Source: Thiohalobacter thiocyanaticus
Lineage (GTDB): Bacteria > Pseudomonadota > Gammaproteobacteria > Thiohalobacterales > Thiohalobacteraceae
Assembly: GCF_002356355.1 (NCBI RefSeq)
Contig: NZ_AP018052.1
Span: 2,542,001 to 2,606,000 of the forward strand
Length of the DNA: 64,000 nt
Reading direction: 5' to 3'
Shown: piece after piece, positions 6,488 through 18,230 of the stretch
How the letters are laid out: every line of letters begins with the position of its first letter
Position numbering within the stretch: position 1 is the stretch's first letter
Program-made: the position numbers and the translations under genes
Notes under the pieces: model-generated
What the model saw: the letters and a program-made list of their open reading frames with translations, nothing else
What the model was told of the DNA's origin: nothing
The model's database searches: none

Positions 6488-9067
6488 ATGCCCCCGGAAC
6501 AAACGGACGTCTGGATGCAGTACAATCAATATACAATAAAAACTGCATGGAACAGGGCCAGGAAAACGCTGGCGGCCAGGGAAGACAGCGAACACGAACA
6601 GGCCCTCATCCGCCTCGCCATCGGCGGCATCATCTTCCTCTATTTCATCTCGCCGATGCCATTGCTCTGGGACGAGCATGAATCAAATCTTCTCTTCCCC
6701 AGACTGATCAGCGGCAGCTTCCTCCTGGTATCGCTGGGCATCATTGCCGCCATCCTGATAAGACCCGCGAAATCCACCGCCAGACGCCTGCTGGGCATGG
6801 TCGTCGATCTCGCCACCCTCTCCCTGGTTATGGCCCTGACGGGAGGCTACGGAACACCGCTGTTCGCCATCTATCTGTGGGTGATCGTCGGCAACGGCTT
6901 CCGTTACGGCGAGCGCTATGTGGACATCTCGATGGCACTGAGCCTTGTCGGCTTCTCCGCGGTTCTGCTGTTGAGCGAGTATTGGCAGCAGCACCTGGAC
7001 ATCGGCGTCAGCCTGCTGTTGCTGCTCATCATGCTGCCGCTCTACATCAAGGTACTGCTGCGCAAACTCTACGAGGCGATTCAGAAGGCCAACCAGGCCA
7101 ACGAGGCGAAATCGCGCTTCCTGGCCAATATGAGCCACGAACTCCGCACCCCGCTCAACGGGGTTATCGGGATGAGCGAATTGCTGCAGGATACGCACCT
7201 GGATGACGAGCAGCGCGACCTGGTCAAGACGGTCCACCTCTCGGCAAGGACGCTGCTCGGCCTGATCAACAATGTTCTCGACCTCACCAGGATCGAGGCA
7301 GGCAAGACCAGCATAGAGAAGAACCGCTTCGATCTGCACTCGCTGGTAAACAGCACGGTGCGACTGCTCGAGGTACAGGGCAAACGCAAGGAACTGCTTG
7401 TCTCCGCCCATATCGACCCGCAGATTCCGTTCATGCTCGAGGGAGATGAACTTCACCTCAGGCAGGTACTGGTGAACCTGCTCGGCAACGCCATCAAATT
7501 CACCGATCACGGATCCGTAACGCTGCGCGTCCTGCCGGCGGGCGGAACCAGCTTCAAACCCCGCATACGTTTCGAAATCGAAGATACCGGGATCGGTATT
7601 GCGGAGGACAAACTCGACCACATCTTCGAGAATTTCAGCCAGGCCGATCACTCCGTCACACGACAGTATGGCGGCTCGGGACTGGGAACAACGATCGCCA
7701 AGCAGTTGGTGGAACTCATGGAGGGCACCATCGGCGTCCGGAGCACGCCGGGAGAGGGCTCCACCTTCTGGTTTGAAGTTCCGATGACACTACTGCGCGA
7801 TGAGGTGGAAAGCGACAACGGCAGGCTGGAGTCAATGCGTATCCTGCTGCTCGCCAGCGAGAAGCTGGCTGCGGCAATCCGCCCTGCCCTGCGCGGCTGG
7901 GGGGTCGAGTTCGATTGGGCGACCACCCCTGCGCATGCGCTTTCGCTGATGCTGGAGGCAAGCGAGAGCGAATGCGCCTACGACGTGGCGCTGCTCGACC
8001 AGACCGCACTCAATATGGAGCCGGACCTGTTCGCCAGAGTCATTCGCAGCGACGACTCCATTATGGAGATCGCACTGATCCTCCTTGTGGACAGAGAGCT
8101 CGATCGTGTCGGCATGCACAGGCTTGAATGCGACTATTCCTCCGTCCTGTCGCAGCCGCCGGAGAAAACCTTTCTGTTCAACGCCATCCATGCCGCACGC
8201 AGCGAAGTGCAGCTGGATGAAAACGTCGTCACTCTATCCGACTACCACCGCCAGAACAGCAGCGTCTCCGAACTCAATATCCTCGTTGCCGAAGACAACG
8301 ACATCAACCAGAAGGTTATCAACGGCATCCTCAAGCGCGCGGGACACCATGTCGACATCGTGGACGATGGCGAGAAAGCGCTGGATGCACTAACCGACGG
8401 CCGCCGACACTACGATCTTGCAATCCTCGACATGAACATGCCGCATAGCAGTGGCATCGAAGTGCTGAAGGCATTCCGATTCTACGATACTTCGGGTTCG
8501 GTACCGGTGATCATGGTCACCGCCGATGCCACGCTGGAGACAATGAACAGCTGCCTGGATGCCGGCGCACACGCCTATATCACCAAGCCGATCGACGCCC
8601 ACAATCTTCTGGAGACGATTGCCGGACTGGTCAGGGGCGGTGAGGCAACCACAGGACGCACAGCGGACACTGAACGGCAAGGCAGGACCAGCAGCCTGAC
8701 AAAGAACATCGTTCTCGACCAGGAAGCACTGAACCGTCTCGCCAATCTGGGTTCTGGAATCGACTTCGTGGCAGAACTTATCGATGGCTTCTGCGACGAC
8801 AGTCGCGCACTGCTGCGCCGGGCGGAGCAGGCGATCGAGGAACAGGACTACCTTGATTTTCGCGAGGCGGTACACGCGCTCAAGGGTAGCGCGGTCGAAC
8901 TCGGCGCCATAGAATTCGTGCAGCTCTGCGAAAAGACCGAAACGATCAAGCCCTATGAAATGTCGGGCGCCGCCCCCGCGAACAGCATGAGGCAGCTGCG
9001 CCTCGCCCATGGACACCTGCTCGAGACAATGCAGGGATATCTTACTCAACAACGCGAAATGCGTTGA
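6488..9067 (+). CDS. rpfC: RpfC-like hybrid sensor histidine kinase (DSF receptor)
   Basis: 859-residue inner-membrane hybrid kinase. After a short N terminus there are about five membrane segments (for example [44 protein letters not shown]) with very short loops and no periplasmic sensor domain, as in Xanthomonas RpfC. Then follow the dimerisation domain with [10 protein letters not shown] (phospho-His at 217), an ATPase domain ([25 protein letters not shown]), a receiver ([22 protein letters not shown]) and a C-terminal Hpt domain ([12 protein letters not shown]). The region between kinase and receiver looks like a degenerate receiver. The gene follows rpfG by 25 bases and the pair probably forms one transcript. 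The ATG follows a TTG codon directly; a further in-frame ATG nine codons on is possible. Confidence 0.9.
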
Positions 9068-9123
9068 AACCACCCCATTTTGCGGAATGGAGTGGCCCCA
9101 GAAAACCCCGTGCCGCAAGTCTC

Positions 9124-9987
9124 CTACTTGGCGTTCTGCCGACTGACAAGACGCTCCATCATACGCAGATCACGCTTCCCCAGGCGCAGCGCTGCTTCGA
9201 CCCAGACCGTGGTGATAGCGAGAAGCTCCCTGTAATCCAGGGTATTGCAGATATCCCTGACCTCACGCATGGCACGATATCCGTTGGCAGCCCTGTCGGC
9301 ACGCTTGATGTACTCGAGCACGGCCAACTCACCCTCACCCTTCTCAGCGAGGATATCCACCACCCCCATCTCATACAGTTCCTCGGCAGTGTAGAGTTGC
9401 CCGCTCAGAATCATCTGTTCGGCCCGCCCGGTACCGATTCTCCGCGACAGCAGGCTGTAGGCACCCATCCCCGGGAACAGATTGAACAGGATCTCAGGCA
9501 GTCCCATCCGGGTGCCGCGCTCCGCAATGAGCACGTTGCTCGACAGTGCCGCCTCGAATCCGCCGCCCAGCGCATCGCCCTGCACCAGCGATATCGTGGT
9601 CAGGTCGCGCTCCAGATGGACAATATTCTGGTAGAGAACATTGATGCATGCCTTGGCATAATCGAGCAGGCCATCATGATCACCGGCGGCGATCAGGGAA
9701 CGGAACAGATTGAGATCACCGCCGAGATTGAAGACACCATCGACGTCGGAAGCAAGCACCAGATAACGGTAGTCACGCCCTCCCTCGCTATCCTGCTCCT
9801 GGCGGACGCAGGTGAACCACTGATCGATGTCCTGCAGCAACTCGGGATTGAAGCAGGGACGCGGTGCTGCATGCATAAAGTACCAGCCGACCCTGTACTT
9901 CTCCTCGTAGTGGGTTGTGAGGTGGCGGTAAGGGGTATTCTCGGAAATCTGAAGCGCTGAAACACGATCACTGGCCAGACTGTACAT
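9124..9987 (-). CDS. rpfF: RpfF-like DSF synthase (crotonase fold)
   Basis: 287 residues, close to the 289 of Xanthomonas RpfF. This bifunctional crotonase-fold enzyme makes cis-2-unsaturated fatty-acid signals (DSF family) from hydroxyacyl-ACP by dehydration and thioester cleavage. Both catalytic glutamates are in the expected places: Glu145 in GDALGGGFEAALSS and Glu165 in MGLPEILFNLFPGMGAYS (equivalents of Glu141 and Glu161). The start ATG has CAGGAGAG seven bases upstream; the frame extends 15 codons further but without a ribosome site. The gene converges tail-to-tail with rpfC over 56 bases, the same arrangement as rpfF against rpfGHC in Xanthomonas. No rpfB-like acyl-CoA ligase lies directly beside it. 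Confidence 0.93.
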   Translation of the reverse strand: MYSLASDRVSALQISENTPYRHLTTHYEEKYRVGWYFMHAAPRPCFNPELLQDIDQWFTCVRQEQDSEGGRDYRYLVLASDVDGVFNLGGDLNLFRSLIAAGDHDGLLDYAKACINVLYQNIVHLERDLTTISLVQGDALGGGFEAALSSNVLIAERGTRMGLPEILFNLFPGMGAYSLLSRRIGTGRAEQMILSGQLYTAEELYEMGVVDILAEKGEGELAVLEYIKRADRAANGYRAMREVRDICNTLDYRELLAITTVWVEAALRLGKRDLRMMERLVSRQNAK

Positions 9988-10257
9988 TGGTCTCTCCTGG
10001 GTAACGGTTGATAGTCTACGCAAATGCAACATCCCCTTGCGTATATATCAATGCCGGTGGAAATCCACAAATCCATCTGATCGGAAGCCGCAACCCTGCT
10101 GTAATAACCACTACGGCATTGATTAATAAATATTACACACATCAACAAATTACCCAATCGCACCCAGTTTGACCAGCGCTATAAACCTCACATGCTCCAT
10201 TCTTATGACGGGCGCGTGATTCATGCTAAGCTGCGCGTATGATATGCGGGGCGCTAC

Positions 10258-11628
10258 ATGCGTTCGTTGTTGAGAGTCGTCAGCAGGAGACCTCCGCTGC
10301 CGCCCTCCCAAGGACCCAGGTCACTGAGCAGGCTCAAAGTGCACGGACTCCTGGAAAGCCGCGACTATGCGGAACTTCACAGCATCCTCAACTACCTCGG
10401 CATCGCCGCGTTCGTGATCGACGTTGAGGGCGACGACGTCTATCGTCTTGCCGCCATCAATGAACGCCATGAGCAGTTGACCGGGATGCGGCACGCCGAC
10501 TGCGCGGGGCGGAGGATCGATGAGATCCTCTCTTTGGAGGTAGCCGAGCAGGTCAAGATCAACTATCGTCGCTGCGTACACCAACGCGCCCCCATTGACT
10601 ACGACGAGAGCCTGGAGCTGCCAAACGGCACCAGTTACTGGCGCACCAACCTGGTACCCTATATCGATGCCTCGGGCCGGGTATTCCGCCTGCTGGGCAC
10701 GTCCTTTGAAATCAGTCGCACCGTTCATCTGGAACAGAAAGCCCGCTACCAATCCAGCCTTCTGGATGCCTATCTGGAAGAGTCGCCCGATGGCATCCTG
10801 GTGGTAGATGCCGACAATCACATCAAAAACTGGAACCGGCGCTTTCTGGAAATCTGGAATATCCCGGCCGACGTCATGGATGCCCGTGATGGCGCCCGGG
10901 CACTGGAAATTGTCCGGGCGCAATTGCGGGATCCCGATGAATTCGTCGACCGGATCAGGGAGTTGTACCAGCGCCTGGATCAGGAGGAGAAGGAGCACCG
11001 GATCAGGATGCGCGACGGCCGCATCCTCGAGCGCTATTCCCGGGGTCTCAGGGATCGCGAAGGGACCTGGTGGGGACGGATCTGGTTCTACCGTGACATC
11101 ACCGAGCAGGAACGAATCACGGAGAAACTGGTGCAGCTGTCCCGCACCGATATGCTGACGGATATCGCCAACCGGCGGGCATTCATGGACACACTGGCCG
11201 AGGAATACCAGCGCGCCCGCCGCTACGGGCACCCGTTCACAGTGCTCATGATCGATCTTGATCACTTCAAGGCCGTCAATGACCGCTACGGCCACGAGGG
11301 CGGCGACGCGGCCCTGAAGGCCTTCAGTCAGACGATCAAACCCATGCTGCGCCACACCGATCAGTTCGCACGCATGGGCGGGGAGGAATTCGCCCTCCTG
11401 CTTCCCGAAAGCGGCCTGGATGAGGCAATGCAACTCGCCGAACGCATTGGCCAGGCAGTCGCCGCAATCGAGGTGAACTGTCGACGCGGTTCCTTCGGGA
11501 TAACCGCCAGCATCGGCGTCAGCGCACTGCAGCCGCAGGATGCCGACCCCGAGGAGCCCCTCGGCCGTGCCGACAGGGCGCTCTATACCGCAAAGGAGGC
11601 GGGCAGGAACCGGGTGGCCTGCAACTGA
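10258..11628 (+). CDS. PAS-PAS-GGDEF diguanylate cyclase
   Basis: 456-residue cytoplasmic protein. Two PAS-like domains (about residues 40-160 and 165-285; the second contains SPDGILVVDADNHIKNWNRRF and ends in FYRDITEQERI) precede a GGDEF domain. The active-site loop GGEEF is at 374-378 and the inhibitory RxxD site (RHTD, 365-368) is intact. SRTDMLTDIANRRAF and DLDHFKAVNDRYGHEGGD are the usual substrate-binding blocks. It therefore should make c-di-GMP and be feedback-inhibited. It is divergent from rpfF across a 270-base AT-rich gap, so the two may share a control region. The signal sensed by the PAS domains cannot be told. Confidence 0.9.
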   Translation: MRSLLRVVSRRPPLPPSQGPRSLSRLKVHGLLESRDYAELHSILNYLGIAAFVIDVEGDDVYRLAAINERHEQLTGMRHADCAGRRIDEILSLEVAEQVKINYRRCVHQRAPIDYDESLELPNGTSYWRTNLVPYIDASGRVFRLLGTSFEISRTVHLEQKARYQSSLLDAYLEESPDGILVVDADNHIKNWNRRFLEIWNIPADVMDARDGARALEIVRAQLRDPDEFVDRIRELYQRLDQEEKEHRIRMRDGRILERYSRGLRDREGTWWGRIWFYRDITEQERITEKLVQLSRTDMLTDIANRRAFMDTLAEEYQRARRYGHPFTVLMIDLDHFKAVNDRYGHEGGDAALKAFSQTIKPMLRHTDQFARMGGEEFALLLPESGLDEAMQLAERIGQAVAAIEVNCRRGSFGITASIGVSALQPQDADPEEPLGRADRALYTAKEAGRNRVACN

Positions 11629-11692: not shown

Positions 11693-13654
11693 TCAGCCGC
11701 GCAGGGGATGCGGGGACACCACATTGGGACAGACCGCCCGCACCTCGTCATACAGGGCGGCCGGCGCCCGGACATAGCGTTGGGAGTGATGAAACGGGAT
11801 CAGCGTCCCGACACCGGCGGCGGCTGCGATCTCGCCACAGGCCCGGGCAGTCAGATGGCCGGTGCGCTCGGCCTGGCCCGCCTCCGTCTCGCGAAAGACC
11901 GCCTCGCAGAAAAAGGTATGGGCACCCCGGGCCAGGCGGATCAGTCGTTCGCGATTGGCCGGGTTGTCGGCGAGATCGGTGGCATAGACCAGAGTCTGCC
12001 CCGGCTGGGACAGCAGCAGACGCTCAGCCAGTTCCCCGGCCCGGACGCTGCGGCCAGCGGGCAGCGTGATCGCCGCATCGACCGCGCCCTCGCCGATCCG
12101 GCGCTTGAGGTCGGTCAGCCAGGGCCCCGGCTCGACGCCCAGGGCCAGCAGGCGATCCTTGCGCACCTGCAGGAGCTGCGACGTCTCGTAGGCATAGGCC
12201 AGCACCGGGATACCGTGATCCAGTTTCACGGCCCGGATCCGGAACCCCGACTCGGTGTGCAGGACCCCGTCGTGGACGCACTGCTCGTCCAGTTCCTCCA
12301 CCCGCTCCCGCCCGACCTGCAGACGAAAGCGGCGCAGACGGCTGTCGTCGTGCAGTTCATGGACCTCGAAGTGCGGGCCGCGCTCGCCGATCCGGTCCCA
12401 GCGGATGCCCTGGATCATGCCCTGGATATGCTGGTGCAAGCCAGGAGGACCATACAGGCGGCAGACCGTGGCCACGCCGACACGGGACCGCAGCAGCCGC
12501 AGGAAGCCCATGATGTGATCGGCATGGGCGTGGCTGATGAATACGTCCGTCACCTGATGCACCACCCGCACCGGCAGACGTTCGGATTCCCCCAGATCGA
12601 ACAGCAGGCTGCGGCGTTGATGGCGCAGCCGCAGGTGCAGCAGCGGGTCGCCGAAGATCCCGTTGACCAGCATGGCGGTCCCTGTCCCCAGGGTCGCCAC
12701 CGGTCGCGGCCCGCCGTCGTCGGGCCCGGCGCTGCGGGTGAGCATGTCCGGCGGCGGCCGGTACCAGGCTACGTGCGCGGCGGCGGGTGCAGCCGTCTCC
12801 AGTTCGCCGCGGGCATTGCGCGCGGCGTCGCGGATAACCAGGGCAGCCGCCGCCCCTGACGTCATGGCCAGCTGGGCACGCAACTGCCCGTCCTCGCAGC
12901 CGATGACCTCGCCCAGGGCCAGGGTCCGTTGCGCGGCATCCACCAGGGCCAGCTGTCGGCCACGCCAGGCGGCCGCCGCCCCGGCCGGCGGCGGCGTACC
13001 CACCACCGGCAGCCGCTCCAGTTCGAGGCTGACCTCCCCGGCCGCGGCCAGATACGCCTCCCACTGCCGCGTCCGGTTGCGGGCGCGCATGCGCCGCCCC
13101 GGCCGACGTGCCGAGGCCACGGCGGGCACCACCCGGGGTTGGCAGCCGCTGGCCGCCAACTCCTCGCGCAGCGGCGGGGAACTGACATGATGGGTCACGC
13201 ACAATGCGACCTCGGCCGCGGTCACTTCAAGCAACCCAAGCAGCAGTTCCGCCCCGGCCACCCCACGCACCACGCCGGGGGCATCGATCAGCAGGGTACC
13301 CCCTGTGTCCCGCGCGAGCAGCCGCCCTACGGCAGCGAGCAGCGGCAGGCGGAAACGGCCGGCATCCAGGCTGCATAACGCCTCCATGGCAACCGGCTGC
13401 CAGCCAGTCCCGCACCACTGGCCAAGAGCGACGGCACCGGGCACCCCGAAGGCGGGGCTGCCCGGATCGGCACCGAGGCAGACGCAGTCACGTCCACGCG
13501 CCGCCAGCGCGGCTGCCAGACCCGCGGCCAGGGTGGATTTCCCGCTACCGGGTTCGCCGTACAGCAACACCCGGCGATCGGCCTTCGCCAGCACAGCCTC
13601 CAGCACCGCCTCCGCCGAAGGGGGCAGCAGGGGAATGGCAGTGGCTGAGGTCAT
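11693..13654 (-). CDS. Fusion of Clp1/Grc3-like P-loop domain with RNase Z-like metallo-beta-lactamase domain
   Basis: 653 residues. Residues 1 to about 300 resemble Clp1/Nol9/Grc3 polynucleotide kinases: Walker A GEPGSGKST at 33-41, then LGADPGSPAFGVPGAVALG (the family's DxDPGQ-like block, Asp63), LLIDAPG as Walker B-like strand, and a C-terminal LALGEVIGCEDGQL resembling the Clp1 beta domain. Residues about 335-653 are an RNase Z-type MBL fold: LGTGTAM, LLFDLGES, the metal motif HAHADH at 375-380, YATDLADN, and GHLTARACGEIA with PFHHSQRY, the tRNase Z C-terminal signature. Both halves look complete. A combined 5'-end kinase and 3'-end nuclease role on RNA, probably tRNA, is inference. A THUMP RNA-binding gene lies 145 bases upstream on the same strand. 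The ATG used here gives a start just before the fold; the frame is open 31 codons further. Confidence 0.8.
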   Translation of the reverse strand: MTSATAIPLLPPSAEAVLEAVLAKADRRVLLYGEPGSGKSTLAAGLAAALAARGRDCVCLGADPGSPAFGVPGAVALGQWCGTGWQPVAMEALCSLDAGRFRLPLLAAVGRLLARDTGGTLLIDAPGVVRGVAGAELLLGLLEVTAAEVALCVTHHVSSPPLREELAASGCQPRVVPAVASARRPGRRMRARNRTRQWEAYLAAAGEVSLELERLPVVGTPPPAGAAAAWRGRQLALVDAAQRTLALGEVIGCEDGQLRAQLAMTSGAAAALVIRDAARNARGELETAAPAAAHVAWYRPPPDMLTRSAGPDDGGPRPVATLGTGTAMLVNGIFGDPLLHLRLRHQRRSLLFDLGESERLPVRVVHQVTDVFISHAHADHIMGFLRLLRSRVGVATVCRLYGPPGLHQHIQGMIQGIRWDRIGERGPHFEVHELHDDSRLRRFRLQVGRERVEELDEQCVHDGVLHTESGFRIRAVKLDHGIPVLAYAYETSQLLQVRKDRLLALGVEPGPWLTDLKRRIGEGAVDAAITLPAGRSVRAGELAERLLLSQPGQTLVYATDLADNPANRERLIRLARGAHTFFCEAVFRETEAGQAERTGHLTARACGEIAAAAGVGTLIPFHHSQRYVRAPAALYDEVRAVCPNVVSPHPLRG

Positions 13655-13799
13655 AGGTTCAGATCCCGACCGGCAGCGGACCGATCTTGCTCCTGACTCA
13701 AGTGTACCGGACGATCCGTATGCTGTGACCGGAACAGACCCGGTCATGATGCAGATCCCCCCCGCTGCATTGTGGTTGGCGCCGGTACGCGGACCCGGC

Positions 13800-14336
13800 T
13801 CAGTCGAGTTTCAGCAGCGGATAACGCTGACGATCGGTACGGGACCAGAGGGACAAACCGGCCTGCTGGCCCAGCGTCTCGACGGCCAGGATGTAATCCG
13901 GATCCTCGAAGTCGATCTGTGTCTGCGCCTCGGAGGACGTATTCATAAGGATGTAGTGATCGAGTTGCTGCTCCTGCTCCTGACTCGAAAGCCGTCCCTT
14001 GAAGCCCCGGCGGTGCATGCGGACATGAAAACGCCTGCCTCCCAGTTCGCCAAGCCAGGGCACGATCGCCCGACGGCAGCCTTCTTCGAACCCCTCGACC
14101 GCCTGAAAGGTGAACCGGACAGTCACCGGCATCACCCGGGCCAGCGCCGAGCGCAAGCCCGGGTGCGACTCAAGATGGTCTGCCAGGCTGCGTATAAATC
14201 CTTGTATATCTGGGACCTGCATGAGCAGAACATTGTAGTAGTCAGTCTTGTAGACAGTGCCGAACCTGCTCAGCGCCTGGCGTACCAGGGTGTAAGTTCC
14301 ATCCTGGACGGTAATAACGACATTCCAGTCCTGCAT
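13800..14336 (-). CDS. Stand-alone THUMP domain protein
   Basis: 178 residues, essentially one THUMP domain. Diagnostic blocks are DWNVVITVQDG at the N terminus, ARVMPVTVRFTFQ in the middle, the RRGFKGRLSSQEQEQQLDHYI stretch (rRGfKg followed by the conserved E-x-LD), and FEDPDYILAVETLGQQAGLSLW at the end. THUMP domains bind the 3' acceptor end of tRNA; stand-alone forms act as adaptors for tRNA acetylation in eukaryotes (Tan1/THUMPD1), whereas most bacterial ones are fused to methylase or thiouridine domains. No enzyme domain is attached here. The downstream co-directional gene encodes the P-loop-RNase Z fusion, so a joint role in tRNA end processing is suggested. Confidence 0.78.
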   Translation of the reverse strand: MQDWNVVITVQDGTYTLVRQALSRFGTVYKTDYYNVLLMQVPDIQGFIRSLADHLESHPGLRSALARVMPVTVRFTFQAVEGFEEGCRRAIVPWLGELGGRRFHVRMHRRGFKGRLSSQEQEQQLDHYILMNTSSEAQTQIDFEDPDYILAVETLGQQAGLSLWSRTDRQRYPLLKLD

Positions 14337-15313: not shown

Positions 15314-15404
15314 TGGCGGAGAGGGAGGGATTCGAACCCTCGATACGGGATTACCGTATACACACTTTCCAGGCGTGCTCCTTCAACCACTCGGACACCT
15401 CTCC
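15314..15404 (-). tRNA. tRNA-Ser(GGA)
   Basis: Class II tRNA of 91 bases with CCA encoded. The acceptor stem pairs GGAGAGG with CCTCTCC; the D-arm region is GTCCGAGTGGTTGAAGG; the anticodon loop CTGGAAAG gives anticodon GGA; a long variable arm follows; the T arm is GGTTCGAATCC. Serine identity follows from the long variable arm and the anticodon. A terminator lies directly downstream. Confidence 0.95.
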
Positions 15405-18091: not shown

Positions 18092-18149
18092 CTCTCTCCG
18101 CCATATAAAAAGGGCCCCGGTTGGGGCCCTTTTTATATGGCGGAGAGAG
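18092..18149. repeat. 27-bp perfect inverted repeat overlapping the tRNA-Ser 3' end; acts as terminator
   Basis: Left arm 18092-18118 and right arm 18123-18149 are exact reverse complements separated by GGTT. The core GGGGCCC followed by TTTTTATATGG is a strong terminator for the minus-strand tRNA. The arms extend beyond the core: the last 12 bases of the right arm are the tRNA 3' end (through CCA), and the left arm contains its reverse complement. The transcript could therefore pair its trailer with the tRNA 3' strand of the acceptor stem. Confidence 0.9.
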
Positions 18150-18230
18150 AGGGATTCGAACCCTCGATGGAGCTTTTAACCCCATACTCCCTTAGCAGGG
18201 GAGCGCCTTCAGCCGCTCGGCCATCTCTCC
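18138..18230 (-). tRNA. tRNA-Ser(GCT)
   Basis: Class II tRNA of 93 bases with encoded CCA. The acceptor stem pairs GGAGAGA with TCTCTCC; the anticodon loop CTGCTAAG gives GCT; there is a long variable arm (GGGAGTATGGGGTTAAAAGC region) and T arm GGTTCGAATCC. It lies downstream of csrA on the same strand, the usual gammaproteobacterial position. Its 3' terminus is part of a perfect inverted repeat described separately. Confidence 0.95.

Follow-up and report, generated by a model that had tools for sequence, protein, structure and literature searches.

The 64,000-nt stretch of Thiohalobacter thiocyanaticus DNA analysed here (the window; positions 2,542,001-2,606,000 of a single-contig 3.23-Mb genome) encodes a 178-residue stand-alone THUMP protein and, downstream on the same strand, a 653-residue protein in which a Clp1-like P-loop kinase fold is joined to an RNase Z. 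We consider it probable that the THUMP protein serves as an adaptor that recognizes tRNA ends and works with enzymes of RNA-end processing and repair, since its family members are enzyme-less THUMP proteins encoded with RtcA, archease/RtcB, RNase Z and Clp1 enzymes, for which a tRNA-recognition part is the best reading; from this setting we infer that it binds tRNA and touches the enzymes, and also what its substrate is and in which order the steps follow. An earlier note on this DNA had described a free THUMP gene 145 bases from a P-loop-RNase Z fusion and had proposed a joint RNA-end module. Both genes, their common strand and their spacing are confirmed, and the module stands in so far as the free THUMP family is linked to RtcA, archease, RtcB, RNase Z and Clp1 by adjacency and co-occurrence, whereas the exact pair of THUMP gene and fusion is not usual.

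Judged by sequence, the THUMP assignment is marginal: Pfam PF02926 scores 20.5 bits against a cut-off of 20.6 (21.7 bits in the genome-wide search) and reaches E ≤ 0.01 in 32 of 79 homologues, and a search of solved structures with the sequence alone returned chance matches only. The AlphaFold2 model built with 79 homologues is confident throughout, with a predicted local distance difference test score (pLDDT) of 95.4 and a predicted template modelling score (pTM) of 0.90, and its top Foldseek/VIA matches are ferredoxin-like plus THUMP proteins, covering the whole length. CDAT8 (3g8q) aligned with Z 14.6 over 147 residues at 2.5 Å, and further matches were TrmN (3tma, Z 12.9), ThiI with RNA (4kr7, Z 11.4), the THUMP domain of THUMPD1 (2dir, Z 9.9), Trm14 and Trm11. 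The model therefore firmly predicts a ferredoxin-like plus THUMP fold, and because these two domains use up the full length, the protein has no catalytic domain. Across the family the motif FHVRMHRRGFKG is mostly retained, with R106, R110 and G111 invariant in all 79 rows. Homologues in 5 of 76 relatives (this genome counted) and at 78 loci of other genomes indicate that the gene is real; within this genome, it is the sole Pfam THUMP match. A plasmid or phage origin of the gene was rejected, as the protein has no match in the plasmid and phage collections.

The genes beside the THUMP gene carry the functional argument. The THUMP alignment had led to the 78 loci in other genomes. Of these, 70 extend at least 1 kb on both sides, many loci being cut off by contig ends, and RNA-end genes were sought with our own profiles for RtcA (from two sequences), RtcB (three), archease (one) and the fusion (three); because these rest on few sequences, distant relatives may be missed. 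Identities of archease, RNase Z, RtcA and RtcB were checked by Pfam and NCBIfam for examples. An RNA-end gene (RtcA, archease/RtcB, RNase Z or Clp1) lay within 250 bases of the THUMP gene at 11 of the 78 loci, and within the available flanks (8 kb) at 16. Their density was sharply peaked, with 12 such genes within 250 bases (31 per 100 kb) and, at the same loci, 2 (about 0.3 per 100 kb) at distances of 2-8 kb from THUMP, an approximately 100-fold difference. The arrangements varied: THUMP-RtcA-archease-RtcB (G062/L089), THUMP-archease-RtcB (G029), THUMP-RtcA on the same strand (G006, G094, L051), RtcA convergent with THUMP (L101, L102, L120; RNase Z stands behind RtcA in the first two), and RtcB-THUMP (L097). 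Archease was found downstream of THUMP in L107 and L114, joined by RtcB in L107, at distances of 0.7-1.9 kb; RNase Z lay less than 40 bases before THUMP in L119 and L123 and faced it in L087; and a lone Clp1-like gene stood 347 bases upstream in L058. One genome without a THUMP gene has RtcA followed directly by a Clp1-RNase Z fusion on the same strand (L026, genome G055, 7821-11022). Mapped onto a tree of 79 THUMP proteins, the label for having an RNA-end neighbour requires 12 changes, which means that this adjacency is not the habit of one clade.

Other neighbours, recognized by eye, also recur. A CapA-family-phosphoesterase-like gene (seen in L024 and the joined cluster) follows THUMP on the same strand in L080, L091, L092, L103, L105, L110 (Nitrosomonas), G046 and L061, a gene resembling ribosome hibernation factor (HPF) lies within about 120 bases after THUMP in the deltaproteobacterial loci L064, L068, L098, L100 and L112, and an R3H/AAA-like gene is a recurrent neighbour in Geobacteraceae.

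RtcA and RtcB are widespread in bacteria, and their co-occurrence with the THUMP gene was counted in 274 gammaproteobacterial genomes. A genome was scored THUMP-positive at E<1e-20 (weaker matches in G076 and G201 were taken to be other long proteins and left out, and in G155 the gene is a fragment at a contig end), long archease-type RtcB was called at E<1e-160, and the fusion was counted where an over-cut-off CLP1_P match fell in an open frame of 650-740 residues; three strong CLP1_P matches whose frames were shorter (G131, G181, G245) were counted apart, and over-cut-off P-loop matches in frames below 300 residues were dropped. THUMP was present in 9 genomes and RtcA in 24, with both in 8 where 0.8 were expected (Fisher p 8.8e-9; all p values here are nominal, as the genomes are related and not quite independent). 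Long archease-type RtcB, found in 57 of the 274, accompanied THUMP in 8 of 9 (p 1.7e-5), RNase Z of the PRK02126 type, found in 23, did so in 6 of 9 (p 1.3e-5), and the fusion, found in 9, in 4 of 9 (p 6.4e-5). The partners were also associated with one another regardless of THUMP: RtcA and PRK02126-type RNase Z occurred together in 11 genomes (p 1.4e-7), and 19 of the 23 genomes with this RNase Z had archease-type RtcB (p 3e-11). Among 50 further THUMP genomes outside this sample, chosen without RtcA in view, 32 have RtcA, a figure to be read with a baseline for RtcA from the gammaproteobacterial sample only.

The longest open reading frame (ORF) of the fusion gene starts at 13747, adding 31 residues not common to homologues, and the homologue alignment begins at the ATG at 13654 that we adopted, which gives the 145-base spacing. 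The fusion claimed in the earlier note is borne out in both halves: CLP1_P scores 50.2 bits on the N-terminal half (cut-off 26.6), while the C-terminal half matches RNase Z subfamily NF002558 (PRK02126) with 282 bits and TIGR02651 with 110 bits, below their cut-offs of 315 and 293. The structure model, made with 13 homologues, is less certain than that of the THUMP protein (pLDDT 80, pTM 0.52), and because of this pTM the relative placement of the halves is uncertain; each half by itself finds clear counterparts, Clp1 of Caenorhabditis elegans, yeast and human for the first (Z 23-25) and Bacillus subtilis RNase Z-tRNA complexes for the second (Z 26). Using motif definitions for Clp1 from PMC6777427 (text seen in part), we found in the 13 homologues that G33, G38 and K39 of Walker A (GxxxxGK[S/T]) are invariant, S40 is nearly so, and the catalytic Asp of Walker B (D63) is invariant. 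The invariant lid-like arginines R190 and R194 have a spacing of four, where the Lid motif RxxxxR has five. The Walker B Gln and the clasp [T/S/L]xGW were not found in this 13-row alignment, DPGS replacing DhhQ and PGV replacing xGW, and because of these differences we do not assume kinase activity. The RNase Z half retains, invariant in all 13 homologues, H600 and the metal ligands of the RNase Z family, H375-x-H377-x-D379-H380 (HxHxDH), H480, D560 and H622. PRK02126-type RNase Z was present in 12 of 12 gammaproteobacterial genomes counted with a real CLP1_P protein. A split form was seen in the gammaproteobacterium G181 (C29, 14233-16231), where neighbouring genes encode a Clp1-like protein and a PRK02126-type RNase Z separately.

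Table 1. Coordinates of the THUMP gene, the fusion gene and its halves, in window positions
Feature	Positions	Strand	Basis
Stand-alone ferredoxin-like + THUMP protein, 178 residues, without catalytic domain	13800..14336	-	ORF list, Pfam, structure model
Intergenic gap between THUMP gene and fusion gene, 145 bases	13655..13799	-	ORF positions and homologue alignment
Fusion gene, 653 residues, Clp1-like P-loop kinase fold + RNase Z (metallo-beta-lactamase fold)	11693..13654	-	ATG at 13654, stop at 11693; Pfam, NCBIfam, structure model
Clp1-like half of fusion, model residues 10-283	12806..13627	-	Homologue alignment (13) and structure match
RNase Z half of fusion, model residues 325-650	11705..12682	-	Homologue alignment (13) and structure match

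How such an adaptor might work can be sketched from the neighbours. THUMP domains capture the CCA end of tRNA (PMC9957541, text seen in part), and in the protein of the window this domain may likewise bind a tRNA, whole or nicked, by its 3' (CCA) end, as it does in ThiI and archaeal Trm11, and so present the RNA to separate catalytic proteins. The substrate would be a broken or misprocessed tRNA. RtcA would turn its 3'-phosphate into a 2',3'-cyclic phosphate, and archease/RtcB would seal that RNA to a 5'-OH; RNase Z could trim the 3' end and the Clp1-like protein could act as a 5'-OH kinase. Published accounts fit the first of these branches, rtcBA being induced by, and implicated in the repair of, tRNAs broken to 2',3'-cyclic phosphates, the ends that RtcA makes (PMC7790460, text seen in part), and archease and RtcB genes standing in operons of diverse bacteria and archaea (PMC3973293, text seen in part). 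In this genome rtcA and archease-rtcB lie at other places, and the THUMP gene has the Clp1-RNase Z fusion as its neighbour, probably within one transcription unit. The least certain step is a branch of trimming or diversion, in which 5'-phosphorylation by the fusion would block RtcB and RNase Z would reset the 3' end. As a tentative generalization, which we regard as possible but doubtful, this unnamed stand-alone THUMP family could be the tRNA-recognition subunit of a modular bacterial RNA-end repair system. It would check that the tRNA 3' end is intact and then direct nicked tRNAs along one of two branches: RtcA and archease-RtcB, which would heal and seal them, or RNase Z with a Clp1-like kinase, which would trim them and divert them from sealing. 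The fusion of the window would be the nuclease-kinase machine of the second branch. If true, a dedicated tRNA-end adaptor would give RtcA and RtcB a choice of substrate, the idea of a stand-alone THUMP adaptor (Tan1) would apply to repair as well as to modification, and the same RNA-repair pathway would take in both a Clp1-like protein that is rare in bacteria and an odd RNase Z subfamily.

Several observations weigh against the adaptor role, alongside the relatedness of the sampled genomes and the Walker B and clasp residues missing from the Clp1-like half. RtcB requires a 5'-OH, so a 5' kinase would block it, and RNase Z leaves 3'-OH ends, which neither RtcA nor RtcB uses. Branch support in the THUMP tree is weak, the starred branches forcing only 3 label changes. 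RtcA is missing from 18 of the 50 further THUMP genomes, including those of seven alphaproteobacterial loci (L097, L099, L107, L111, L114, L119, L123), at five of which THUMP instead lies near RtcB, archease or RNase Z; among the nine gammaproteobacterial THUMP genomes, one, G155, whose gene is a fragment at the end of a contig, has neither RtcA nor RtcB. Finally, 62 of the 78 loci show no RNA-end gene in the available flanks, and the neighbours are different ones in Nitrosomonas, most Geobacter and cyanobacterial loci. These last two points favour a different explanation, in which the THUMP protein is a general accessory of tRNA binding or modification and its adjacency to the fusion and Rtc genes reflects loose clustering of RNA genes plus horizontal transfer, with no common pathway. 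The recurrence of the CapA-like, HPF-like and R3H/AAA-like neighbours and the loose pairing with the fusion agree with it as well. We nevertheless consider it unlikely, though the most serious of the alternatives, since loose clustering does not account for the peak of RNA-end genes at immediate adjacency, nor for the co-occurrence of the same genes with THUMP in genomes where they do not adjoin it.

The pairing with the fusion itself is seldom conserved. Among 76 relatives, THUMP was found in 5 and the full-length fusion in 8, with both in 3 (G000, G046, G062); the 274-genome sample has four genomes with both. THUMP gene and fusion are close in two of these, this one and G193 (1.2 kb apart, same strand, one ORF between), while in G062 they are 8.4 kb apart on opposite strands and in G046 on different contigs, and a fixed operon of the two was accordingly rejected. 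At the other 78 loci, two have them adjacent on the same strand: L084, where RtcA, THUMP and fusion follow one another on one strand with gaps of about 60 and 50 bases, and the deltaproteobacterial L113, where the fusion follows THUMP after 58 bases; L053 is a third, with the genes 1.2 kb apart. Thus, the refutation that the earlier note had named, that the genes are usually apart, holds for this pair and does not extend to the wider set of RNA-end neighbours. In the window, orientation and spacing suggest that the two genes form one transcription unit; no sigma-70-like promoter or terminator pattern was found in the 145-base gap, which is uninformative at chance expectations of only 0.3 and 1.3 per 3.2 kb scanned. 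A second THUMP-family fragment of 37 residues lies 1.6 kb from the fusion gene of G062 (C16, 36779-36889) and is possibly the relic of a copy that formerly adjoined the fusion.

The adaptor could instead serve ordinary tRNA 3' maturation, with THUMP presenting precursor tRNAs to RNase Z and the kinase tidying 5' ends. No protein of this genome other than the fusion matches RNase Z strongly (3.5e-32 for the fusion; next 1.4e-9), the RNase Z motifs of the fusion are intact, and RNase Z adjoins THUMP without a Clp1 part in the alphaproteobacterial L119 and L123. We found, however, that 18 of the 20 tRNAs predicted in 512 kb of this genome already have CCA in their gene sequence, the two without it being doubtful predictions, one without clear identity. 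Those 18 therefore need no cut at the discriminator base, and the fusion is unlikely to serve mainly for the usual cleavage that precedes CCA addition. In addition, PRK02126-type RNase Z occurs in only 23 of the 274 genomes, and a maturation role would not predict its presence in 11 of the 24 genomes with RtcA. We therefore judge this role improbable. The earlier note's self-contained tRNA maturation unit is also unlikely, both because of the encoded CCA and because rtcA (1.489 Mb) and archease-rtcB (2.366 Mb) do not adjoin the THUMP gene (2.556 Mb). At 1-4 kb from the THUMP gene are two tRNA-Ser genes (GGA at 15314-15404, GCT at 18138-18230), each of which encodes its CCA.

It is highly improbable that the protein is instead a Tan1-like partner of the bacterial tRNA acetyltransferase TmcA (N4-acetylcytidine, ac4C), even though its layout without catalytic domain is that of archaeal Tan1 (PMC9957541, text seen in part), the eukaryotic homologue of TmcA uses the THUMP adaptor Tan1, and TmcA occurs in this genome and in 6 of the 9 THUMP genomes versus 74 of 274 overall (p 0.013), because that association is far weaker than the one with RtcA, the THUMP genomes G029, G094 and G193 lack TmcA, and the scanned THUMP and fusion loci hold no TmcA homologue, the only match being the query's own locus. 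In the 274 genomes, neither RtcA nor RNase Z nor RtcB was significantly associated with TmcA.

In the open-licence PubMed Central literature we found no description linking THUMP proteins with RtcB or the phosphate cyclase RtcA; Burroughs and Aravind (2016) reportedly surveyed the gene neighbourhoods of RNA repair and may have mentioned such a link. With the bacterial Rtc systems (rtcBA; rsr-yrlBA-rtcBA; archease-rtcB) the THUMP family shares its neighbourhood and its co-occurrence with RtcA and archease-type RtcB, its members adjoining rtcA or archease-rtcB in G006, G029, G062, G094, L051, L084, L097, L101, L102 and L120, whereas the published operons carry RtcR, Rsr/Ro60 and Y RNAs, and PMC7790460, which describes them, mentions no THUMP protein. 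The N-terminal half of the fusion resembles Thermus scotoductus Clp1 in its above-cut-off CLP1_P match, its Clp1 fold, Walker A and catalytic Asp, and differs in being fused to RNase Z and in lacking the clasp Trp and Walker B Gln; the main text of Saito 2019 (PMC6777427) contains neither 'RNase Z', 'lactamase' nor 'fusion'. Its C-terminal half is akin to RNase Z/RNase BN in fold and metal ligands, and differs from the PRK02126 type in its score below the cut-off and in its fused Clp1-like half. ThiI, TrmN/Trm14/Trm11, CDAT8 and RlmL/RlmM share the ferredoxin-like plus THUMP fold (Z 10-15), and in ThiI the THUMP domain captures the CCA end of tRNA (PMC9957541, text seen in part); all of them carry a catalytic domain in the same chain, whereas the protein of the window stops after THUMP. 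Closest in layout are Tan1/THUMPD1, the adaptor of Kre33/NAT10, and its archaeal homologues, which combine ferredoxin-like and THUMP domains without a catalytic domain and are likewise presumed adaptors (PMC9957541, same part); the family described here differs in its context, which is that of Rtc, RNase Z and Clp1 enzymes and not of the acetyltransferase TmcA.

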